Shown here in pieces: positions 17,498 to 31,161 of a stretch of 45,287 bases of DNA (positions are counted from its first letter, which is position 1; every line of letters begins with the position of its first letter). Position numbers and translations under genes: made by a program. Location: contig NZ_JPMX01000139.1 of NCBI RefSeq assembly GCF_000761485.1, forward strand, positions 28,498 to 73,784. Reading direction: 5' to 3'. The notes under the pieces are model-generated. The model had not been told where the DNA came from and did no database searches. It saw nothing but the letters and a program-made list of their open reading frames with translations. This stretch comes from Modestobacter caceresii. GTDB lineage: Bacteria; Actinomycetota; Actinomycetes; Mycobacteriales; Geodermatophilaceae.

Positions 17498-20272
17498 TCA
17501 GCGCCGCCAGCGGGAGCGGCCGCGCTTGAGGGCACGGTCCCGGGCCGCGGTGAGCTCCGCCAGCTGCTCGGCCGGCGCGCCGGCCGCCTGGTACGCCTGC
17601 AGGGCGGTGTCGTAGCGAACGGCCTCCGGCGGGCTGAACGACGCGACGGCCCAGAGCGCGTCGGCGACGAGTGCGAGCACGTCCTCACGGTGTCCGACGG
17701 CGACGGCTTCCTCCGCCAGGGAGATCGCCTCTGCGGTGCGCCCCAGCGCATGCAGTGCGTCTGCCTCCCGCAGGCCGGTCGCCGCCACGCCCACGGGCTG
17801 CCCGGCGTCGGTGTAGGCGTCCCTGGCCGAGGCGTAGAGCGGCAGGGCCTCGCCCGCCCGGCCGGCGACCACCAACCTGTCAGCGTGCTCCTGGCGCACG
17901 TCCGCCACCAGGAGCGGGTCCTCGTCCTCCTCCGAGATCGCGGCCAGAGCTGCCTCCCCGGCGGCGAGGGCCTCGGCGACCTGCCCACCTGCGTCGTGCA
18001 CGTCCGCGAGCGTGCGCTGCACCCGCAGTCGCGCTCCCGCCTCGTCGGTCGGCAGAGCGGTGGCCGCTCGCTGCGCCGCCGCCAGTGCACCCGCCACGTC
18101 GCCGTGCTGGAGCAGCAGTCGGGCGAGGTCGAGCGACGCGGCGCCCTCGAGCTCCCGGTCGCCGTCCTCCGCTGCCCGTTCGACCAGCTCGGTGTACAGG
18201 TCGTGGGCGCTCAGGTCCTCCTCCAGGTCGCGGAACAGGCGAGCCGCGTCCAGCCGGGCCCAGCCGGCGGAGGACACGTCCCCGGCACCGGCGAACAGGT
18301 CGACGGCTGTCCAGGCCGCGGTCAACGCCTCGTCCAGGCGGTCGGCGTCGCGGAGCAGCCGCCCCCGCGCGGCCGCCGCCTCTCCAGCCGCACCAGGGTC
18401 GTCCAGCGCCTCCTCGCTGGACTGCACGGCGCTGAGCACGTCGATCGCCCGGTCCACCTCGCCCGCCTCGAGGAGGGCCGGGACGAGCACCTGCGCGACA
18501 TCGGTGACACCGGCGTCGTCGGTTCGCGCCCGCACCTGTTCCCATGCGGTCTCCGCCGCCTGCAGTGCACCCGCGACGTCCCCGACCACCGATCGGCTCC
18601 ACGCCTCGCTCGCCCACGCGTCGGTCACCAGGGGCGGGTCAGCCGCCAAGAGGTCGCGCGCGTCCGCGAAGGCCGCGCCGGCTGCCGCCAGTCCCGCAGG
18701 GGCCGGCTCCTCGCCCAGCTCCAGCACCGTCCACTCCGCCCGCAGCGCGGCGACCCGCCCCGCCATCAGTTCCGGAGTGCCGGCACGCGCCGCGGCGGTG
18801 TCCGCCACGGCACACCACCGCCGGGCCTCGTCGTCCACGGCGCCGGCCGTCCCGGCCGTCAGCCTGGCCAGCGTCAGCGCCGCTCGCACCTGTTCCACCG
18901 GGTCCGCCGTCAGCGCCGGCACAGCCCGAGCCAACGCGTCAGCCGCCTCCGGGAGCCGGTCCAGCCGCAGCAGCGCCTCCCCGACGGTGGCCAGGGCACG
19001 TGCGGCTCCCCCGGCGTCGCCGGCCGCCTCGTACCGGGCCAGTGCGCGCTCGGCCGCAGCCAGTCGCGGCGCCGCCGGGCCCCGGGGGGTGCGGGCCAGT
19101 TCCAGCAACGTGTCGGCGTCCTCGTCGCTGACGGCCGGCACCACGGCGACGGTGACGGTGGTGGGCAGCGTCGGGCTGGTCGTCCGTACGACCGGTGGTG
19201 CCACCACCGTCACAGGCCGCACGCCCAGCCACTCCTCTGCGTCTCGGGTCCGGAGGTCGGTGCCGTTGCGCCGGTCGAACGCCGCAGCGATCTCCCTGGC
19301 TCCGCCGGCGAACAGGCCGGCGAGCGCTGTGGTGTCGCGCGGGCGAGCCCCGAGCGGACGCGGGGTCTCGGTGACACCTGTCTCGGCCAGCGACGCAGCC
19401 ACCGCGGCACCGGCACTCAGCACGATGAGCCGGGCATCGACGTCGAACAGGCCGCGGTCGCACACGTCGACGAGTTCGGCCAGCAGGTCGACGGCGTCGT
19501 CGAGCCGGCCTGTGCGCACGAGGTGCAGGACATGGCGGGCCTGGGCACCGACCAGGGAGGGGTTGCCCCGAGCCAGCCGCAGCCCCCACTGGTGCAGCCG
19601 CTCGGCCTCCTCGTGCTCCCCGAGCTCGGCCAGCGGCGCCAGCAGGTCGGCCAGCACAGCGGCCGGCTGCTCGGCGCAGTCCAACCGACCGGCGACGAGC
19701 GGCCGGGCGAGGTCGACCGCTCGCGCCGGGTCACCGGCGGCGATGGCCAGGTCGACCTCGGCGGCGACGTCACATGCCCGGCAATCGCCCATCGGCGTGC
19801 GCGGCACCACGCGCCACCGTCGATGCGCCTCGACGGCCTCGGCCACCCGCCCCGTGCGGAGCGGCACCGTCCAGGCCAACTTGGCGACCGCGTCCTCGCC
19901 GATCCCCTCGGCGGCGTACCGGCGGCGTTGCTCGGCCAGCACCCGTTCGACGTCGGTCAGCGGCACCTGCGGCAGGTCGAGCAGCGTGCCCGGCAACCAC
20001 TTGAGCGCCCAGTAGGTGTCCTCGATGGCGAAGCGCCCCGGATGGGCATCGATCTGACCCAGGCACCAGGTGGTCGCCACCATCGCCTTCTGCGCCTCAC
20101 CACCGTGCTGCGCGGCCGAGGCCAGCGCCACGCGGGCCTCGAAGGACGCGTCGAGGTCGTTGGCCGCGTCGGCGAGCCGGACTGCCTCCTCAGCGGTCGC
20201 CGTCCGGGCGTAGCCCGGCGGCATCTCCGCGACCTCCCGCAACAGCGACCGCACCGACCTACTCCGTGCCAC
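17498..20272 (-). CDS. Large tetratricopeptide-like protein partnered with Hsp90
   Basis: 924 residues from GTG 20272, which overlaps the upstream Hsp90 gene by 14 bases. The whole protein is helical and Ala/Leu/Glu-rich, with many degenerate TPR-like helix pairs such as 'EAADALARAVPALTADPV', EALTAAWTAVDLFAGAGD and 'EAISLAEEAVAVGHREDV'. No enzymatic motif, signal peptide or membrane segment is seen. A middle segment (about 330-390) is less regular and Thr/Val-rich. It probably acts as a scaffold or adaptor, most simply as client-binding partner or co-chaperone of the neighbouring Hsp90. In eukaryotes TPR proteins bind Hsp90, but here the pairing rests on operon structure only. Confidence 0.85.
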   Translation of the reverse strand: MARSRSVRSLLREVAEMPPGYARTATAEEAVRLADAANDLDASFEARVALASAAQHGGEAQKAMVATTWCLGQIDAHPGRFAIEDTYWALKWLPGTLLDLPQVPLTDVERVLAEQRRRYAAEGIGEDAVAKLAWTVPLRTGRVAEAVEAHRRWRVVPRTPMGDCRACDVAAEVDLAIAAGDPARAVDLARPLVAGRLDCAEQPAAVLADLLAPLAELGEHEEAERLHQWGLRLARGNPSLVGAQARHVLHLVRTGRLDDAVDLLAELVDVCDRGLFDVDARLIVLSAGAAVAASLAETGVTETPRPLGARPRDTTALAGLFAGGAREIAAAFDRRNGTDLRTRDAEEWLGVRPVTVVAPPVVRTTSPTLPTTVTVAVVPAVSDEDADTLLELARTPRGPAAPRLAAAERALARYEAAGDAGGAARALATVGEALLRLDRLPEAADALARAVPALTADPVEQVRAALTLARLTAGTAGAVDDEARRWCAVADTAAARAGTPELMAGRVAALRAEWTVLELGEEPAPAGLAAAGAAFADARDLLAADPPLVTDAWASEAWSRSVVGDVAGALQAAETAWEQVRARTDDAGVTDVAQVLVPALLEAGEVDRAIDVLSAVQSSEEALDDPGAAGEAAAARGRLLRDADRLDEALTAAWTAVDLFAGAGDVSSAGWARLDAARLFRDLEEDLSAHDLYTELVERAAEDGDRELEGAASLDLARLLLQHGDVAGALAAAQRAATALPTDEAGARLRVQRTLADVHDAGGQVAEALAAGEAALAAISEEDEDPLLVADVRQEHADRLVVAGRAGEALPLYASARDAYTDAGQPVGVAATGLREADALHALGRTAEAISLAEEAVAVGHREDVLALVADALWAVASFSPPEAVRYDTALQAYQAAGAPAEQLAELTAARDRALKRGRSRWRR

Positions 20273-22043
20273 CGAGACTCCCTTCGACGAGGCGCCCGAG
20301 GGCGCCGGACAACAACGTGGTCTCCTGCCCGCGCAACGGGTGACGGCCCATGAGGAGCGCCTGGAGGTACAGCACCTCGACCGCGGTGCGCAGCGCACCG
20401 TCACCCACGGGACCCGCGAGCTGACGCACGACCGGGTGCCGCCAGTTGAGCACCAGCTGCGCCTCCCTCCGCCCAGGTCCGGGCGTCTGCAGGTGACTGA
20501 GCAGCGGACCCCAGAACGCCCCCGCCACCTGGGCGGTCTCGCCGACCTCGCGGGTGAACCGCGCTGCGTCGCCTGCGGTGTACAGGCAGGGCAGCGACTC
20601 AGGGCTGAAGGAACGCACGTCGACATCGCAGTCGAAGGACAGCAGCACCGGCCGGGCGCGCCCGGCCAGTGCTGCAGCTGCGACCTGGTCGCCCCCGGCC
20701 ACCGGAGCGAGCACCGCGGCCAGGTCCTCGGGCTCCACGTGCTCGACCTCGACGCCGGGCACCAGGTCCGGCAGCCGCAGCAGGAGGTCCTCGTCGTAGG
20801 TGTAGCCGGCGTTGACCAGGCAGATCCCCTCAGCCGTGGCGACCTGCGCCATCTGGCTGAAGTCCTCCTTCGTCGCCGCGTAGCGGACCCGCCCACGCCG
20901 GGTCAGCTCGGTCAGCGTCATCCGGCCCTGGTTCGTCTCGACCGGCAGCCACGGTGAGAAGAGCCGCAGCAGCTCGTCGTCGTGCACGGCCAGTGACTTC
21001 AACGCGAGCGCGTGCACGCGGACGAGGGCCTGCAGCCTCGTCGGCTCGTGCTCGGCCACGGTGGTCAGCCAGCTGCGCAGGGCCGCCCCCAGCCCGTCAC
21101 GGACGGCAGCGAGGGTCGCGTCCTCGTAGAGGCCCTCCCGGGAGGCGAGCGGCTGCAACGCGCTGGTGTCCACGACGGCGCGGACGAAGAACGCCCACTC
21201 GGGGAGCAACCCGTCCACCGCATCGGACAGCAGCATCCGTTTGAGGTGCACCCGGTGCCGCTGCCGTGACGCCGGGCTGGGGCTCTCCGGGTGCACGAAC
21301 GCGACCCCGGTCAGCCCCGCTGCCGGCAACTCGAGCGGGACGGCGTCCAGGAATCGCTCCCCGAACTCCTGGTGTCCCCACTCGAGCAGGCCGTCACGGT
21401 CCTGCCCGAGCCACGGCAGCACTCGCCCGGCCATCCGCTCCGAGCCCTCGGCGGTACGGAGCACGATGGGCTGAGCCAGCAGACCGGCATAGCGCTGGAC
21501 CAGCGCGCGGACGGTGTCCGGGCGGAGGTGGTCCTCCAGCCCCGGTCGGGCGGTCAGCCAGACCGTGGTCCCTGGGGTGCGCCGCCCCTCGCCGTCCGGC
21601 AGTTCGCGGAGCTCGTAGGTGCCGTCGCTGCGGCCCTGCCAGGAGACGCCCGCACCACCCCGCACCGACCGGGTCACCACCCGGATCTCGTCGCTCACGA
21701 GGAAGCAGGCCAGGAGGCCGATCCCGAAGCGGCCGAGGTAGTCGATCCCGGGGGCAAAGAGCGCGTCCCGCTTGGAGGAGGAACCGATGGTGGCGAGCAG
21801 CTCGTGCACCTCGGCCACCGTCAGACCCACGCCGTCGTCCTCGACGGACAGGACCGGGGCGGCGCCCGGCCGCTCGTGGCACTCGATGACGACGGCGGCC
21901 CCGACGCCGTCGGAGCCGCGGGCCGAGATGGCGTCGACGGAGTTCTGGACCAGTTCCCGCAGGTAGACGTCGGGTGAGCTGTAGAGGTGGGAGGAGAGGA
22001 GGTCGACGACGCCACGCAGGTCGACCTGGAAGGAGTGGCGCAC
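20259..22043 (-). CDS. Divergent Hsp90/HtpG-family ATPase
   Basis: 594 residues, ATG at 22043. The GHKL ATP-binding domain is clear: N-box RELVQNSVDAI (29-39), a D-D-G-V-G loop (69-73) and glycine-rich lid GRFGIG (104-109). A middle domain carries ALQPLASREGLYED, equivalent to the HtpG SRE motif holding the catalytic arginine. It is slightly shorter than classical HtpG (about 620-640), the C-terminal dimerisation region is poorly conserved, and it ends GSLGGTE. It is probably an ATP-driven chaperone for specific clients. It is encoded immediately before, and overlapping, the TPR protein. The pair looks like a module separate from housekeeping htpG. Confidence 0.9.
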   Translation of the reverse strand: MRHSFQVDLRGVVDLLSSHLYSSPDVYLRELVQNSVDAISARGSDGVGAAVVIECHERPGAAPVLSVEDDGVGLTVAEVHELLATIGSSSKRDALFAPGIDYLGRFGIGLLACFLVSDEIRVVTRSVRGGAGVSWQGRSDGTYELRELPDGEGRRTPGTTVWLTARPGLEDHLRPDTVRALVQRYAGLLAQPIVLRTAEGSERMAGRVLPWLGQDRDGLLEWGHQEFGERFLDAVPLELPAAGLTGVAFVHPESPSPASRQRHRVHLKRMLLSDAVDGLLPEWAFFVRAVVDTSALQPLASREGLYEDATLAAVRDGLGAALRSWLTTVAEHEPTRLQALVRVHALALKSLAVHDDELLRLFSPWLPVETNQGRMTLTELTRRGRVRYAATKEDFSQMAQVATAEGICLVNAGYTYDEDLLLRLPDLVPGVEVEHVEPEDLAAVLAPVAGGDQVAAAALAGRARPVLLSFDCDVDVRSFSPESLPCLYTAGDAARFTREVGETAQVAGAFWGPLLSHLQTPGPGRREAQLVLNWRHPVVRQLAGPVGDGALRTAVEVLYLQALLMGRHPLRGQETTLLSGALGRLVEGSLGGTE

Positions 22044-22728: not shown

Positions 22729-23952
22729 GTGAGCAACGACGCTTCCCCTGACTTCTACGCCCTCGACGACCTCCTGGAGCCGGAGGAGATCGAGCTGCGG
22801 GACCGGGTGCGCGACTTCTGCACGCGCGAGGTCACGCCGATCATCAACGACTACTGGGAGCGGGCGGAGTTCCCGTTCGAGCTGGTCCCGAAGATCGCTG
22901 AGCTGGGCGTGGCCGGCGGCACGGTCGCCGGGTACGGCTCGGCCGGGATGAGCGCGGTCGCCGCCGGGCTGGTCGCCGCCGAGTGGGCCCGCGCCGACGG
23001 CAGCCTGGGGACCTTCTACGGCGTCCACAGCTTCCTGGCCATGCAGTCGATCGCCCTGCTGGGCGATGAGGAGCAGCGCGAGCGCTGGCTGCCGGCGATG
23101 GCCCGGATGGAGCTGATCGGCGCGTTCGGCCTGACCGAGCCCGCGCACGGCTCGGACGCCGTCGCCCTGGAGACCAGCGCCCGCCGGGACGGCGACGAGT
23201 GGGTGCTCAACGGCGCCAAGAAGTGGATCGGCAACGGCACGATCGCCGACCTGGTGCTCATCTGGGCCCGCGACGAGGAGGGTGCGGTCGGCGGCTACGT
23301 CGTCCCCAAGGGGTCGATCGGCTGGACCGCGACCCGGATGACCGGCAAGACCGCGCTGCGGGCGGTGTGGCAGGCCGAGATCACCCTGGACGAGGTGCGG
23401 GTGCCGGCGGAGAACAAGCTGGCCAACTGCCGCTCGTTCAAGGACGTCTCGGTGGTGCTGGACCGCACCCGGTACACCGTGGCCTGGCGGGCCCTGGGCA
23501 TCGCCGAGGCCGCCTACGACCTGGCCTTGAAGCACACGATGCAGCGGGAGCAGTTCGGCCAGCCGATCGCCGGCTACCAGCTGGTGCAGGAGAAGCTGGC
23601 CCGGATGCTGGCCGAGATCACCAGCATGCGGCTGCTGAGCTGGCGGTTGAGCAAGCTGGCCGACGAGGGCCGGATGACCGCGGCGATGGCCTCCATGGCG
23701 AAGATGAACAACTGCAAGAAGGCCCGGCAGATCGTCGCCGACGCCCGCGACCTCTTCGGCGGTGACGGCATCCTGCTGGAGCACCACATCGCCCGCCACC
23801 ACGCTGACATCGAGGCGATCTACACGTTCGAGGGCACCGACCACGTGCAGGCGCTCATCGTGGGCCGGGACATCACCGGCATCTCGGCCATCACCGGCCG
23901 GCGGACGCCTCGGGCCGAGCAGAAGCCGGCCGAGCCGCCGCAGTCGATCTAG
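22729..23952 (+). CDS. Acyl-CoA dehydrogenase, glutaryl-CoA dehydrogenase-like
   Basis: 407 residues from GTG 22729 (a GTG nine codons earlier is possible). A classical three-domain ACAD: N-terminal helices, a middle beta domain with AFGLTEPAHGSDA and WVLNGAKKWIGNG contacting FAD, then the C-terminal helix bundle with 'HTMQREQFGQPIAGYQLVQ' and ARDLFGGDGIL. TFEGTDHVQALIVGRDITGI is characteristic of the glutaryl-CoA dehydrogenase subgroup, the Glu being the catalytic base. It probably oxidises glutaryl-CoA or a related acyl-CoA from lysine, tryptophan or aromatic breakdown. The terminal TAG shares a CTAG with the stop of the convergent gene. Confidence 0.9.
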   Translation: MSNDASPDFYALDDLLEPEEIELRDRVRDFCTREVTPIINDYWERAEFPFELVPKIAELGVAGGTVAGYGSAGMSAVAAGLVAAEWARADGSLGTFYGVHSFLAMQSIALLGDEEQRERWLPAMARMELIGAFGLTEPAHGSDAVALETSARRDGDEWVLNGAKKWIGNGTIADLVLIWARDEEGAVGGYVVPKGSIGWTATRMTGKTALRAVWQAEITLDEVRVPAENKLANCRSFKDVSVVLDRTRYTVAWRALGIAEAAYDLALKHTMQREQFGQPIAGYQLVQEKLARMLAEITSMRLLSWRLSKLADEGRMTAAMASMAKMNNCKKARQIVADARDLFGGDGILLEHHIARHHADIEAIYTFEGTDHVQALIVGRDITGISAITGRRTPRAEQKPAEPPQSI

Positions 23953-24203
23953 CCGACCTGTCGCAGTGCCGGCGCCGTGCGGCGCCGGCACTCGGCGCAG
24001 GTGTCGCGGCCACTGCTCATCCGCCCCCACCGTTGCGCACCCCAGATCTGCACGATCGCCCCGCACACGGCGAGCTCCACCTCCCCGTCGAGCTCGTCGG
24101 CTGGCCGGTGCGCCTCGACGGCGTGCCAGGACTTGGGCTGGTCGACCGGCTGGGCCCAGGATCGGCGATCCGGCCGGGCGAATCCGACGGCGTAGCTGTC
24201 CAC
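23949..24203 (-). CDS. Small Cys-rich (putative zinc-binding) protein
   Basis: 84 residues from GTG 24203 (a TTG at 24236 is an alternative). Pattern: SWHAVEAHRPADELDGEV, then AVCGAIVQIWGAQRW, then TCAECRRRTAP, i.e. one His and three Cys at spacings compatible with a zinc site. This layout (W-H-A, C-G-A, C-x-x-C) resembles a family of short actinobacterial proteins often placed next to regulators. It is divergent from the sigma-RsbT gene with 35 bases between starts, so both may share control. Function not known. Confidence 0.6.
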   Translation of the reverse strand: MDSYAVGFARPDRRSWAQPVDQPKSWHAVEAHRPADELDGEVELAVCGAIVQIWGAQRWGRMSSGRDTCAECRRRTAPALRQVG

Positions 24204-24238
24204 GTCATCTCTGTGCCCCACGCCACAAGAAGCCAATC

Positions 24239-25477
24239 ATGAGCCGTTCCACCGCCCCGACGTCCGGCGCTCCGTCGCTGAGCCGGCACGTCCTCGAGCA
24301 CGGCCCCCTGCCATTCCCGGGTCGTCGTCTGCTGCGCCTGCACCCGAACCCGGCACACCGGTCCGCTGCGGGCTCCACTGGCGTAGCGTCCCGGCCGTGG
24401 GGACTGCGCGGTCCGCCGAGGAACCGGACGAACCCCGCGCCGCACACTGACATCGCCGCGCTCATCCCGATGGTGCGCCGCGTGATCGCCGCCCGCGTCG
24501 CCGACGCCGCGACGGTCGACGACCTGGTCCAGGAGACCCTGGTGCGGGTGCTCGCCGCCGCCGGACGGGTCGAGCCGGGCATGCTGGAGCCGTACGCGAT
24601 CGTCACGGCCCGGAACGTGGTGACCTCTCAGTGGCGCGAGCGTGACCGGCACCAGCGGAACCAGCACCGGGTGGTCGACCTGCGCCCTTCCGCCGCGGTG
24701 GACGAGGACCTCCTCGCGCGCGAGGAGCGCGATGCGGTCGCCCAGGCGCTCACCCGGCTCTCGGCGCAGGAGCGCGACCTGCTGCTCGCCCACGAGGTGT
24801 CGGGGCGGGACACCCGGTCGCTGGCCGGGGAGCTCGGTTCGACCGCCGGGGCCGTCGCGGCCCAGCTGAACCGGACCCGAGCCCGGTTGCGAGTGGAGTA
24901 CCTGCTCTCCGTCGAGGGCGTCGAGCCGCCCACCGATCGCTGCCGCCCGGTCCTGCTCGCGCTCTCCGGCGGCGACCGCCGGCGGCAGCGGGAGGTGGAC
25001 GCCGGCCGCCACCTCCTGGAGTGCGGGTCGTGCGCACGCCTGAGCCAGCCCCTGATGGAGCGCGGTCAGCCCAGGGAGGACGAGGTCCGGGTCCGGGTCG
25101 AGTCCGACGCCGACATCGTGGCGGCGCGTCAGGCCGCCCGCGAACTGGCGTCCCGGCTCGGCTTCTCCCGGACCGACCTGACCTTGATCGCGACGGCCGT
25201 CTCGGAGATCGCACGCAACATCGTGCGCTTCGCCGGCTCCGGCGAGGTCCTCGTCGAACTGCTCGAGCACCCGCACCAGGGGGTGCGCGTCGTCGCGCGG
25301 GACACCGGACCGGGGATCGCCGACGTCGAACGGGCACTCACGGACGGCTACAGCACCTACGACGGGCTGGGACTGGGACTGCCCGGTGCCCGGCGACTGA
25401 TGGACGAGTTCGCGGTGGTGTCGGAGATGGGCCGCGGAACGACGGTGACGATGACGAAATGGCGGACTGGACGATGA
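24239..25477 (+). CDS. Fusion: ECF sigma factor, zinc anti-sigma motif and RsbT-like kinase
   Basis: 412 residues if read from ATG 24239. An uncertain low-complexity N-terminus (1-70) is followed by sigma-70 region 2 (about 75-135, with DDLVQET at 94 and 'ARNVVTSQWRERDR'), region 4 (about 168-222, LSAQERDLLL and 'STAGAVAAQLNRTRARL'), a ZAS-type Cys-His-Cys-Cys motif (C about 237; HLLECGSC at about 258-265), and an RsbT/SpoIIAB-like HATPase (about 284-412) with N-box EIARNIVRFAG, G1 DTGPGIAD, G2 'GLGLGLPGARRLMDEF' and a GTTVTMTKW end as in RsbT. The sigma and switch-kinase functions are thus in one chain. RsbR follows with an ATGA overlap. A one-base frame problem near the start is noted separately. 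Confidence 0.85.
   Translation: MSRSTAPTSGAPSLSRHVLEHGPLPFPGRRLLRLHPNPAHRSAAGSTGVASRPWGLRGPPRNRTNPAPHTDIAALIPMVRRVIAARVADAATVDDLVQETLVRVLAAAGRVEPGMLEPYAIVTARNVVTSQWRERDRHQRNQHRVVDLRPSAAVDEDLLAREERDAVAQALTRLSAQERDLLLAHEVSGRDTRSLAGELGSTAGAVAAQLNRTRARLRVEYLLSVEGVEPPTDRCRPVLLALSGGDRRRQREVDAGRHLLECGSCARLSQPLMERGQPREDEVRVRVESDADIVAARQAARELASRLGFSRTDLTLIATAVSEIARNIVRFAGSGEVLVELLEHPHQGVRVVARDTGPGIADVERALTDGYSTYDGLGLGLPGARRLMDEFAVVSEMGRGTTVTMTKWRTGR
24384..24399 (+). promoter_or_regulatory. Possible -10 box ahead of an out-of-frame GTG
   Basis: TAGCGT (24384-24389) fits the actinobacterial TANNNT -10 element and stands seven bases before GTG 24397, the geometry of a leaderless transcript. That GTG opens only 17 codons (ending TGA 24448-24450) and is one base out of frame with the sigma domain. 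No convincing -35 element is seen. Either a chance motif, a leader ORF, or a sign that the true start has been displaced. Confidence 0.35.
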
Positions 25478-26394
25478 CGGACCACGAGCACCACACCGCG
25501 CCGGCGGGGACGGCCCCGGTCTCACCTGAGTACCTGTACGAGCGGGACGACGAGCACCAACTGCTCCCTCAGCTGGTCGCCCACCTCCGCGAGCACCGGA
25601 CGAGGTTGCGCCAGGAGTGGGCGGGGCGCATCCAGCAGTCCGGTCTGCTGCGGGCGATGACCCCGCAGGAGATGACGGTCGAGACCACCTCGGTCTACGA
25701 CAACTACGTGGAGGTCCTGGAGACCGGCAGCGTGGAGGCGCTGCAGCGGTACGCCCGCGACCTGTCGGAGCGGATCATCCCCCGCGGGGTCGAGACGCAC
25801 GAGGTGGTCGGGATCGTGCTGCTGCTGCGTGACGTCCTGGCCCGCTCCCTCTTCGAGAAGTACCAGCTCGACTTCGCCCTGCTCAACCGGGTGCTCGACG
25901 CCTACGAACCCGCCGCCAACCGCATCGCGATCACCGTCGCGGGGAGCTTCGTCGACGAGCGGGAACGGGTCATCCGCCAACAGCAGGACTCGATACGTGA
26001 GCTGTCCACGCCGGTGCTTCCCGTGCGGGAACGGCTGCTGATCCTGCCGATCATCGGCGTGCTGCACAGCGAGCGGGCACGTCAGCTCACCGAGCAGCTG
26101 CTGGCCGGCATCCGCACCCACCGCGCCAAGGTCGTCGTCGTCGACATCACCGGCGTGCCGGACGTCGACGAGGCGGTGGCCAACCACCTCGTCCAGACCG
26201 TCGACGCCTCCCGGTTGATGGGCGCCAGCGTGATCATCACCGGGCTCTCCCCGGAGATCGCGCAGACCCTGGTCACCATCGGGGTGGACCTCAGCAAGAT
26301 GGACACCATCGGTGACCTGCAGGGCGGCCTGGAGGAGGCCGAGCGGCTGCTCGGCTACACCGTCACCCGGGACAGCGGCATGGCGAGCCCCTGA
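25474..26394 (+). CDS. rsbR: RsbR-like stressosome protein (sensor plus STAS domain)
   Basis: 306 residues; ATG 25474 overlaps the fusion gene's TGA. The N-terminal helical half (about 25-165) resembles the RsbRD-type sensory domain (HLREHRTRLRQEWAGRI; IIPRGVETHEVVGIVLLLRD), and the C-terminal half (about 185-300) is a STAS domain with VVVVDITGVPDVDEAVANHL and IITGLSPEIAQTLVTIGVDL. The Thr phosphorylated in B. subtilis RsbRA (T171) is replaced by Glu in GVPDVDEA, while the T205-equivalent in EIAQTLV is kept. It would form the stressosome with RsbS and hold the RsbT-like kinase domain. The sensed signal is unknown. Confidence 0.9.
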   Translation: MTDHEHHTAPAGTAPVSPEYLYERDDEHQLLPQLVAHLREHRTRLRQEWAGRIQQSGLLRAMTPQEMTVETTSVYDNYVEVLETGSVEALQRYARDLSERIIPRGVETHEVVGIVLLLRDVLARSLFEKYQLDFALLNRVLDAYEPAANRIAITVAGSFVDERERVIRQQQDSIRELSTPVLPVRERLLILPIIGVLHSERARQLTEQLLAGIRTHRAKVVVVDITGVPDVDEAVANHLVQTVDASRLMGASVIITGLSPEIAQTLVTIGVDLSKMDTIGDLQGGLEEAERLLGYTVTRDSGMASP

Positions 26395-26813
26395 TGTCCG
26401 GGCCGAAGCTGGTCTCCATCCTGCGCCAGGGCCCTCACCTCATCGCGTCCATCCACACGGCCCTCGACGACACGGAGATGGAGCGGTTCCGGGAGGACCT
26501 GGTCGAGCAGATCGGGCGGCACCGGTCCCGCGGGGTGGTGATCGACGTCGCCGCGCTCGACGTGCTCGACTCCTTCGGCGCACGCACGCTGCGCACCATC
26601 GGGGAGATGGCCCGGCTGCGCGGGGCGGTGACCGTGATCGTCGGCATCCAGCCCGACGTGGCGTTCGCGATGGTGTCGCTCGGCATGGACACCGGGACCG
26701 TGGCGACCGCGCTCGACCTGGAAGAGGGGCTGGCCTTCCTCGAGGGCAGCGGCGCCCGCCGGTCAGGGGCCGGGCGGATCGGTGCACCCGCCGCCCGGGC
26801 GGTGCCCCGGTGA
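26394..26813 (+). CDS. rsbS: RsbS-like stressosome STAS protein
   Basis: 139 residues; ATG 26394 shares one base with the rsbR stop. A single STAS domain with GVVIDVAALDVLDSFGART, where Ser in VLDSF is the equivalent of RsbS Ser59, the target of RsbT, and AFAMVSLGMD in the position of the C-terminal STAS helix. A Gly/Ala/Arg-rich tail of about 25 residues follows. It co-assembles with RsbR into the stressosome core. Its phosphorylation by the kinase domain of the sigma fusion would be expected to release that kinase. This chain is inferred from the B. subtilis model. Confidence 0.9.
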   Translation: MSGPKLVSILRQGPHLIASIHTALDDTEMERFREDLVEQIGRHRSRGVVIDVAALDVLDSFGARTLRTIGEMARLRGAVTVIVGIQPDVAFAMVSLGMDTGTVATALDLEEGLAFLEGSGARRSGAGRIGAPAARAVPR

Positions 26814-27190
26814 GCCCGCTCGAGCGCCTCGCGCGCGACTACCGGATGGCCCTCCTCAGCTACCTGCCGCGCCGCGAGGAGGCAGCACTGAACCGGGGGT
26901 ACGAGCTGGGACGCTCGGCCGTCATCGAGCAGGTGGGGCTGCTGGAACTGGCCCGGGTCCACCACGACGTCTTCCTGGCCGTGTTGGAGGAGACCCAGGC
27001 CGACGACGTCCTGCCGGTGGCGGCCGCTGCCTCGGAGTTCCTGATGGAGGTGCTCGCCACGTTCGACATGACGCAGCGCAGCCTGCACGAGAGCCGGCCG
27101 GCCGCGCGGGGCCCTCGACCGGGAGGCGGGGTCACGGCCTCCCGGTCGAGGGCGGAGCACGCGGGACGGACCCGCGCGCGACGGGACTAG
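26810..27190 (+). CDS. Stand-alone RsbU N-terminal-type domain (no phosphatase domain)
   Basis: 126 residues from GTG 26810, overlapping the rsbS stop by four bases. It begins SPLERLARDYRMALLSYL and continues with EEAALNRGYELGRSAV, 'LLELARVHHDVFLAVL' and 'ASEFLMEVLATFDMT', the helical pattern of the RsbU N-terminal domain (PF08673 type), which in B. subtilis binds RsbT. No PP2C catalytic domain follows: the C-terminal 35 residues are Arg/Gly-rich and end at a TAG. It probably binds the RsbT-like domain as a partner or decoy instead of acting as a phosphatase. Downstream DNA carries no PP2C gene. Its TAG shares CTAG with the convergent gene. Confidence 0.75.
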   Translation: MSPLERLARDYRMALLSYLPRREEAALNRGYELGRSAVIEQVGLLELARVHHDVFLAVLEETQADDVLPVAAAASEFLMEVLATFDMTQRSLHESRPAARGPRPGGGVTASRSRAEHAGRTRARRD

Positions 27191-30088: not shown

Positions 30089-30169
30089 ATGACCTCGCTC
30101 GTCGACGTCCGCACCACGACCAGCTGGGTCGCCGCCCGCCGGATCACCGTCGACCGGGTCGGAGCCTGA
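30089..30169 (+). CDS. 26-residue upstream ORF (possible leader peptide)
   Basis: ATG 30089 has an excellent Shine-Dalgarno (AGGAAGG about six bases upstream) and 26 sense codons ending in TGA at 30167-30169, whose A is the first base of the next gene's ATG (TGATG). The peptide begins TSLVDVRTTTSWVAARRITV and contains four Arg. It is too short to be an enzyme. Its tight overlap suggests translational coupling, or an arginine-sensitive leader. The downstream ATG has no separate Shine-Dalgarno, in keeping with reinitiation. Confidence 0.55.
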   Translation: MTSLVDVRTTTSWVAARRITVDRVGA

Positions 30170-31161
30170 TGGCCGTACCCGTGCAGGCGCCGGGAGCCGT
30201 CGTGCTCATCCGCCCGCACCGGTTCCGCCCCAACGAGCTGACCCGGGTCGACAACGCCTTCCAGTCGCTGCCCGCCGGGCCGGACCCCGCCGCCGTCGCC
30301 GCGCAGGCCCGCGACGAGGTGACCCGGCTGGCCGAGGCGCTGGAGTCGGCGGGGGTGGTCGTGCACCTCTTCGAGGACCACGCGCACGATCGCCCGGACG
30401 CCGTCTTCCCGAACAACTGGCTGTCGACGCACCCCGACGGCCGGGTGGCGCTCTACCCGATGTTCGCGGTCAACCGGCGCAGCGAGCGGCGAGCCGACGT
30501 CGTCCAGCTGCTCCAGGAGCGGTACCGCGTGGACCAGGTCGTGGACTTCTCCGGCATGGAGCGGGACGGACTGTTCCTCGAGTCGACCGGGGCGATGGTG
30601 CTCGACCACCAGGAGCGGGTCGCCTACGTCTCCCGCTCCCACCGGGCACACCCCGAGGCGCTGGCGCGGTTCTGCGCGACGTTCGGCTACGAGGCGGTGC
30701 TGTTCGACACGGCCGACGCCGAGGGCCGGGCGGTCTACCACACGAACGTGCTGATGACGGTGGGCAGCGCGGTGGCGCTGGTCGGGCTCAGGCTGATCAG
30801 CGCGGCCGCTGATCGAGCCCGGGTGACCGACCGGCTGGCTGCGACCGGCCGGGACGTCGTCGATCTCTCCGAGCACCAGGTCCGCCAGTTCGCCGGCAAC
30901 GCCATCGAGCTGACCGGCCGCGACGGACCGGTGCTGGCGCTCTCCGCGCGGGCCGCCGCCAGCCTCACCGCAGACCAGCGCCGGCGGATCGAGGCGACGA
31001 CCCAGCTGCTGGCGGTAGCCGTGCCGACCGTCGAGCTGGCGGGCGGATCGGTGCGGTGCATGATCGCCGGGGTGCACCTCACGCCACGACCGGCGGCCCT
31101 CCCGCGCGGGCCGCTGTTCGGAGCGCAGCCAGGAGCGGTGCGGGTGCCCGTCGCCCCCTGA
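30169..31161 (+). CDS. ctlX: CtlX-like amidinohydrolase (citrulline / dimethylarginine type)
   Basis: 330 residues from ATG 30169. An arginine-deiminase/amidinotransferase-fold protein: FPNNWLSTHPDG (about 83-94), FSGMERDGLFLESTGAMVLD, and VYHTNVLM with the catalytic His; nucleophile Cys297 in GGSVRCMIAGVHL. Pattern and length match the citrulline-utilisation hydrolase CtlX group and related dimethylarginine dimethylaminohydrolases. It probably hydrolyses the guanidino/ureido group of arginine-derived compounds. Coupled to the short leader ORF and divergent from an Lrp-family gene, which suggests amino-acid control. No rocD or arginase neighbour is visible. Confidence 0.88.
   Translation: MAVPVQAPGAVVLIRPHRFRPNELTRVDNAFQSLPAGPDPAAVAAQARDEVTRLAEALESAGVVVHLFEDHAHDRPDAVFPNNWLSTHPDGRVALYPMFAVNRRSERRADVVQLLQERYRVDQVVDFSGMERDGLFLESTGAMVLDHQERVAYVSRSHRAHPEALARFCATFGYEAVLFDTADAEGRAVYHTNVLMTVGSAVALVGLRLISAAADRARVTDRLAATGRDVVDLSEHQVRQFAGNAIELTGRDGPVLALSARAAASLTADQRRRIEATTQLLAVAVPTVELAGGSVRCMIAGVHLTPRPAALPRGPLFGAQPGAVRVPVAP

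Follow-up and report, generated by a model that had tools for sequence, protein, structure and literature searches.

In Modestobacter caceresii, a sigma factor and a stressosome kinase are encoded together at the head of an operon that also encodes RsbR, RsbS and a lone RsbU N-domain. This operon lies in the window analysed here, a stretch of 45,287 nucleotides (contig NZ_JPMX01000139.1, positions 28,498–73,784 of the forward strand; coordinates below are those of the window). A single open frame on the plus strand (24239–25477) encodes sigma region 2, sigma region 4, a Cys/His motif and an RsbT-type ATPase. On balance we favour the reading, drawn from sequence, that the operon specifies a stressosome with a built-in sigma output, in which the fusion protein would dock through its RsbT end and be released whole. 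An earlier reading of the same DNA (the original prediction) did not know this architecture as described. Our search of the open-access literature, which was limited and leaves a prior mention possible, found no account of a sigma–RsbT fusion. Such an operon, with its sigma output fused and the relay genes missing, was not met in the literature searched and appears to be a novel form of a known type of system.

The fusion gene and its relatives

Profile searches recognise both ends of the fusion protein. In Pfam, the window fusion matches Sigma70_r2 (PF04542) at residues 74–137 (41.6 bits against a cut-off of 24), Sigma70_r4_2 (PF08281) at residues 165–217 (28.3 against 25.7) and HATPase_c_2 (PF13581) at residues 291–407 (51.2 against 27.4). 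The general extracytoplasmic function (ECF) sigma factor model of NCBIfam, sigma70-ECF, scores 67.9 bits against a cut-off of 42.9. The original prediction had placed sigma regions 2 and 4 in one chain and named a failed profile search as what would undo it; the searches returned both regions above their cut-offs. The features of the gene are as follows.

24384..24389, plus strand: TAGCGT, a −10-like TANNNT box, 7 nt before the GTG at 24397
24397..24399, plus strand: GTG, the probable native start by comparison (start position of the relatives, −10 box just 5′)
24449..25477, plus strand: conserved body of the fusion gene (sigma, Cys/His, RsbT), one of 29 uninterrupted family frames
24458..24649, plus strand: sigma-70 region 2 with DLVQE (Pfam PF04542)
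24731..24889, plus strand: sigma-70 region 4, type 2 (Pfam PF08281)
24941..25033, plus strand: Cys-x22-His-x3-Cys-x2-Cys segment (motif only, invariant ligands)
25109..25459, plus strand: RsbT-type HATPase with SExxRN, DxGPGI and GLGLGLPGARRLMDEF (Pfam PF13581; tree with separate RsbT)

Examination of the 29 fusions found in the window's family highlights the same parts throughout. All 29 have Pfam matches in both sigma regions and in the ATPase domain (E ≤ 1). The DLVQE of sigma region 2 is invariant, as are E323, N327, D355, G357, G359, G376, G378 and G380 in the N, G1 and G2 boxes of the ATPase. Having both region 2 and region 4, the first half of the protein is an ECF sigma factor by its sequence and is predicted to bind RNA polymerase. 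The second half has the GHKL ATPase boxes of an RsbT switch kinase, with its predicted kinase motifs intact.

The ATPase groups with RsbT and is set apart from ten further ATPase domains of the genome. The RsbT end of the window fusion scores 89–146 bits with eight RsbT proteins encoded separately in other loci, but it reaches no more than 19.2 bits with those ten. In a tree of these sequences, 13 rows (five fusions and the eight separate RsbT) lie on one side of a 100/100 branch and the ten genome ATPase domains on the other; an RsbW row that proved out of frame was disregarded, and fusion row L266 and own-genome row L129 were left out. These results, with the HATPase_c_2 match and the intact motifs, bear out the RsbT-like HATPase of the original prediction. 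Against the RsbT identity, SpoIIAB is the top-scoring ATPase model in NCBIfam (52.6 bits), and in the full-length fold model the RsbT end is closest to SpoIIAB and RsbW. The sigma end of that model weakly resembles ECF sigma chains.

Between sigma factor and kinase, all 29 fusions keep C235, H258, C262 and C265 without exception. The same four ligands are kept in 20 of 20 aligned rows, five membrane-type relatives among them. The segment has the arrangement Cys...HxxxCxxC, which we take to be the ligand pattern of zinc anti-sigma (ZAS/zf-HC2) domains. However, zf-HC2 is absent among the Pfam families matching any of the 29 fusions at E ≤ 1, and isolated segments matched nothing relevant in Pfam (four segments) or NCBIfam (20 rows). 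A profile of the segment found no anti-sigma factor among PDB sequences, and its predicted helical fold (predicted local distance difference test, pLDDT, 87.7) found no PDB match; profile and fold tests are weak for so short a segment. Of the zinc anti-sigma motif in the original prediction, the invariant Cys/His pattern holds, and a match to such a domain by profile or fold does not. RsbT follows the segment directly in the fusion, with no membrane segment of the kind found in ECF52, ECF53 and ECF48.

The sigma and Cys/His half also occurs in front of a different partner. It is 57–62% identical over ∼205 residues to the membrane-type proteins L172, L269 and L270; L055 and L057 are more distant membrane-type cases. 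In all five, the same Cys/His segment is followed by a hydrophobic segment (judged by eye) and then by a tail that carries the motif A-(D/N)-E-G-F-W. This tail matches no Pfam family above cut-off in L172 and L055, the two that were scanned, and is possibly an undescribed sensor domain.

The original prediction had suggested a domain search across actinobacteria, and uninterrupted fusions were found both within the family and beyond it. Counts at the family, genus, class and phylum levels are lower bounds, since few candidates were scored per genome. In the family, 31 of 112 genomes match at E ≤ 1e-25, and 29 of them, the window's included, carry uninterrupted, near full-length frames. The remaining two are a frameshifted copy (L050 in G039), left out of alignment A1, and a partial match with a stop (G093). 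L050 at first resembled a naturally divided pair, a sigma gene beside an RsbT gene, but this was rejected, as its frames are those of a frameshifted copy. At E ≤ 0.001 there are matches in 18 of the 23 genus genomes; only seven have the fusion, and the others are weak matches to the sigma or ATPase part. In the class, 16 of 394 genomes match a profile of A1 at E ≤ 1e-40. Beside the window's own genome, G119, G159 and G322 hold full-length fusions and come from three other families; two more genomes match in the sigma part and ten in RsbT alone. In the phylum, 10 of 396 genomes match at E ≤ 1e-60: the window's own, G159, six that match in the sigma part, and G691 and G749, whose full-length fusions come from one family outside the class. 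Thus five fusions lie outside the family, in four other families, two of the five in another class. Named fusion records among the matches listed come from a Nocardioidaceae metagenome-assembled genome, Geodermatophilus aquaeductus (L168), an uncultured Tetrasphaera and two strains of Humibacillus xanthopallidus. From DLVQE onwards, the Geodermatophilus fusion does not differ from that of G064, a genome of the window's family.

A single origin of the fusion was considered and is not firmly supported. In a tree of RsbT halves, from which nine of 16 separate RsbT loci were dropped because a pattern was not met, 36 distinct fusions form one group (91/88, with long branches flagged). The ATPase tree includes one fusion of the other class and does not place it securely. 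In a tree of the sigma and Cys/His half, which lost three of 35 chosen rows and six of eight outgroups to the same kind of filter, seven membrane-type rows share a group with the two fusions from the other class (89/100, with the bootstrap not settled and long branches). A tree constrained to keep the 25 fusions as one group is not rejected (P value of the approximately unbiased test, p-AU, 0.145).

Comparison also bears on where the gene begins. The original prediction started it at 24239, which is probably wrong: the relatives do not begin at this ATG, and their start lies ∼41 codons upstream of DLVQE. A TANNNT box ends 6–7 nt 5′ of the comparative start in 21 of 22 loci (window included, with its start set by hand), whereas 500 shuffles averaged 0.35 of the 22 and never exceeded 3. 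This count covers 24 loci minus two from Humibacillus without a start codon near the expected place, and it was made after the box had been noticed by eye on the same sequences. We take a TANNNT box this close to a start to be a housekeeping-type promoter in the pattern of leaderless messages, and its spacing suggests a leaderless message here. No ECF-type promoter pair stood out upstream of the fusions in a search of 23 sequences. The conserved body is under purifying selection like that of its relatives, with ratios of nonsynonymous to synonymous substitution (dN/dS) of 0.11–0.22 in seven comparisons with the window and 0.15–0.22 in five pairs of relatives. Divergent from the fusion is a small open reading frame (23949–24236, minus strand) that matches no Pfam family above cut-off; a crude gene caller placed similar frames in four of 20 loci.

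Operon partners and missing relay parts

Three genes follow the fusion on the same strand.

25474..26394, plus strand: RsbR-like co-antagonist, N-domain and STAS domain, Glu at the first phospho-Thr site (PDB RsbR, 1.6e-34)
26394..26813, plus strand: RsbS-like STAS protein, phospho-Ser (DSF) kept (PDB RsbS, 1e-21)
26810..27190, plus strand: RsbU N-domain-only protein of 126 amino acids, without a phosphatase domain (Pfam PF08673)

The top PDB matches of the window RsbR, including the best, are stressosome RsbR chains, and the profile of its N-domain, RsbRD_N, falls slightly under cut-off (22.4 against 24.3 bits). RsbU_N reaches 50.1 bits in Pfam against a cut-off of 25.5. With RsbS beside an RsbR composed of N-domain and STAS domain, the operon encodes a predicted stressosome. 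Consecutive genes overlap by one to four bases: the RsbR ATG at 25474 runs into the TGA of the fusion (25475–25477), the RsbS ATG at 26394 into the TGA of RsbR (26392–26394), and the RsbU_N GTG at 26810 into the TGA of RsbS (26811–26813). The three partners and their overlapping stops and starts are as the original prediction described them, and the conservation of gene order that it proposed to check extends to 25 of 25 further loci. The order fusion–RsbR–RsbS–RsbU_N, on one strand, recurs in 18 of 18 fetched loci, five of five named loci and two of two loci of the other class. It was read only where the neighbourhood was retrieved; the 4 kb piece of G119 stops inside RsbR.

The phosphosites of RsbR differ between the two kinds of locus. 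The first site, located by the pattern DITGxPxVDT, is presumably T171 of Bacillus subtilis RsbR. Beside the fusion it is Glu in 21, Val in three, Gln in one and His in one of 26 loci, and Ser or Thr in none. Beside a separate RsbT it is Ser (three) or Thr (five) in all eight readable loci; a ninth locus, L174, has no RsbR that fits the pattern. Deposited RsbR chains carry Glu (9o4h) or Ala (9o3z) at this position, two chains that are presumably an engineered phosphomimic and phospho-null. The second RsbR site, the Thr of IAQT or IART, is kept in 24 fusion loci plus two of the other class. The Ser of RsbS (in DSF), likewise a predicted phosphorylation site, is kept in 26 of 26 fusion loci.

The operon has no RsbU_N joined to a PP2C phosphatase and no RsbX feedback phosphatase. 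In 24 of 24 fusion loci the RsbU_N protein is the N-domain alone, its frame ending 85–130 residues after the start of the match. A mycobacterial-type RsbX query found RsbX in none of these 24 loci and in neither of two short contigs of the other class. Two loci have a PP2C-like match at a distance, ∼2 kb off on the opposite strand in L155 and, as a short match, ∼4 kb downstream in L156. By comparison, seven of the seven separate-RsbT loci tested have an RsbX-like match (L165 supplying the query itself). Loci L165 and L166, from two genomes of the window's taxonomic order, share one gene order, with a separate RsbT: RsbR, RsbS, RsbT and RsbX are followed by an RsbU_N that heads a long chain with RsbU_N, PP2C and RsbW parts, read by Pfam as RsbU_N–PAS–PP2C–HATPase in L165, the one scanned. 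Four Streptomyces loci (L175, L176, L177 and L178) show another arrangement, in which RsbR–RsbS–RsbT precedes a single frame that encodes a further RsbT-like ATPase together with an RsbX-like phosphatase.

Searches of the window's genome gave no clear second set of these parts. RsbU_N occurs once in it, inside this operon and without a phosphatase. The RsbX query returned two matches of at most 24.1 bits, within larger frames and neither a clear RsbX; the RsbR query returned RsbR itself and the RsbS of the operon; and the fusion query returned no second RsbT at E ≤ 0.001.

Elsewhere in the window, 20259–22043 (minus strand) encodes an Hsp90-like protein of 594 amino acids with HATPase_c_3, its Hsp90 family match falling exactly at the cut-off. 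The frame at 30169–31161 (plus strand) scores 290 bits with the eukaryotic-type dimethylarginine dimethylhydrolase family.

Proposed mechanism and alternatives

In the mechanism that we propose, RsbR and RsbS would form the sensing shell, as their families suggest. The RsbT end of the fusion would dock on this shell and keep the attached ECF sigma factor off RNA polymerase. Under stress, the RsbT domain would phosphorylate RsbS at its kept Ser and RsbR at the kept Thr of its second site, and the whole fusion would depart. Replacement of the first RsbR site, mostly by Glu, suggests a step that no longer requires phosphate. The Cys/His segment, placed between sigma factor and kinase, would probably lock the sigma factor closed in cis. 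In Bacillus, the RsbU N-domain is the docking domain for free RsbT; here the RsbU_N protein would bind the freed kinase end, probably as a dimer, and either open or cap the fusion. The operon itself includes no RsbU phosphatase, no RsbV/RsbW step and no RsbX.

Direct release of the sigma factor fits because sigma factor, RsbT and partners are all present and the cascade is absent from the operon. The original prediction held that the cascade is skipped. This stands for the operon, which lacks RsbU phosphatase and RsbX, and is less secure for the cell, where other phosphatases offer an indirect route. The original prediction mentions neither the lack of RsbX nor the changed phosphosite of RsbR nor the membrane-type relatives. 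A second gate after release is likely, because simple release leaves out two kept parts, the Cys/His segment and the RsbU_N protein. We tentatively carry the proposal further, at somewhat less than an even chance. The shell may be a reversible anti-sigma factor on which many sigma factors ride by their own kinase domains, to be launched by phosphorylation. The lone RsbU N-domain may be a dimerising key that opens or caps a launched sigma factor. The unit has its sigma half in common with single-chain sigma factors that carry a membrane-type module in RsbT's place.

Several points weigh against release of a built-in sigma factor. Docking, release, autoinhibition, the role of RsbU_N and all interactions of the fusion (with RsbR and RsbS, RNA polymerase and RsbU_N) are steps that we infer. 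The full-length fold model has a predicted template modelling (pTM) score of 0.51, which leaves the arrangement of the domains unsure, and the Cys/His segment is zinc anti-sigma-like by motif, without profile or fold support. The genome has 20 SpoIIE matches above cut-off (PP2C-type phosphatases, by which an indirect route could run), 32 HATPase_c_2 matches and one sigma factor of the SigB/F/G type above cut-off. Distribution is patchy, with the fusion in seven of 23 genomes of the genus, and the loci come from related genomes, so that their counts are not independent events. Finally, the window copy is offset: the frame of the GTG at 24397 lies one base off the sigma frame and is ended by a TGA at 24448–24450. 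Because the body keeps normal constraint, the offset is either a recent frameshift or an error of sequence or assembly; the family-level conclusions are independent of it.

Among the alternatives, two concern the parts that simple release leaves out, and each is possible but unlikely in our estimate. The Cys/His segment may be a redox or zinc sensor that governs the sigma factor alone, with the stressosome as a second, independent input. The invariance of its ligands in the 29 fusions and the five membrane-type relatives agrees with this, as do the soluble zinc anti-sigma domains that are described to sense oxidation (PMC8999054, in excerpt). However, ligands shared with membrane-type relatives may hold a zinc that is structural only, and the segment has no profile support. 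Alternatively, the RsbU_N protein may be an off-switch that stands in for RsbX, capturing the freed fusion to terminate the response. In favour, RsbU_N is kept in the same 24 loci that lack RsbX, but the small protein could equally be an activator.

A third alternative, which we consider improbable, makes the output indirect. The RsbT end would activate a phosphatase without RsbU_N, acting on SigF, and the sigma half would only regulate its own operon. The SpoIIE matches and the SigB/F/G sigma factor supply candidate parts for such a route. However, RsbU_N, the RsbT-docking domain known to us, occurs once in the genome and lacks a phosphatase, and the conserved upstream box, which we take to be of housekeeping type, and the lack of an ECF-type promoter pair give no sign of autoregulation. 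A sigma half that no longer drives transcription, and that serves RsbT only as anchor or scaffold, is very improbable. The lack of a recorded promoter or regulon speaks for it, but regions 2 and 4 score above their cut-offs, DLVQE is kept in all 29 fusions and dN/dS is ∼0.2. An artefact in which a sequence error fused two adjacent genes could draw on the one-base offset of the window copy and the frameshift of L050, but joining by frameshift is ruled out by the 29 uninterrupted family frames and the five in four other families.

If the built-in sigma output that we favour is real, it would, to our knowledge, link a stressosome to a gene by the shortest path, with no phosphatase, no anti-anti-sigma factor and no separate anti-sigma factor on the way. 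Each freed kinase would carry a transcription factor, which would make the number and timing of RsbT molecules released per stressosome testable. The natural absence of RsbX and the lost first phosphosite of RsbR would reveal which parts of the Bacillus system are dispensable when the output is fused.

Comparison with known systems

The operon shares much with the B. subtilis RsbRST module and its RsbU–RsbV–RsbW–SigB cascade: the STAS proteins RsbR and RsbS, an RsbT-type kinase, the RsbU N-domain and tight packing of the genes. It differs in that RsbT is fused to an ECF sigma factor, which is not of the SigB type, in that the operon has neither RsbU phosphatase nor RsbX, and in that the first RsbR phosphosite is replaced beside the fusions. 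In B. subtilis, RsbT binds the N-domain of RsbU, and this domain dimerises RsbU (PMC12143880, in excerpt).

Mycobacterial clusters offer a second comparison. The RsbR–RsbS–RsbT–RsbX–RsbUW arrangement described for Mycobacterium marinum (PMC8115616, in excerpt) is that of L165 and L166, whose RsbR and RsbS are ∼81% and ∼55% identical to those of the window. Unlike the operon of the window, this arrangement has a separate RsbT, an RsbX and an RsbU_N that belongs to a long PP2C/RsbW chain; the output of the mycobacterial cluster is SigF (PMC8115616, in excerpt). Mycobacterium tuberculosis Rv1364c likewise unites partner-switching domains in one chain; those named in the excerpt (PMC12143880) are phosphatase, anti-sigma and anti-anti-sigma domains, with no sigma factor among them. 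Vibrio-type RSTX modules (PMC9237108, in excerpt) similarly couple a stressosome to outputs other than the SigB cascade. The outputs described in that excerpt, however, are separate downstream proteins, none of which is named there as fused to RsbT.

The sigma half has its own parallels. By published description, zinc-finger and membrane parts are fused to the sigma factors of ECF52, ECF53 and ECF48 (PMC8999054, in excerpt). They and SCO4117 (PMC5826349, in excerpt) share with the present fusion an ECF sigma factor and a C-terminal Cys/His segment in one chain. In contrast to ECF52, ECF53 and ECF48, which we liken to it by their description (PMC8999054, in excerpt), the fusion has an RsbT kinase where they have the membrane part. 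Together with its membrane-type relatives, the fusion shows that a stressosome kinase and a membrane-type module occupy the same position behind one sigma module.

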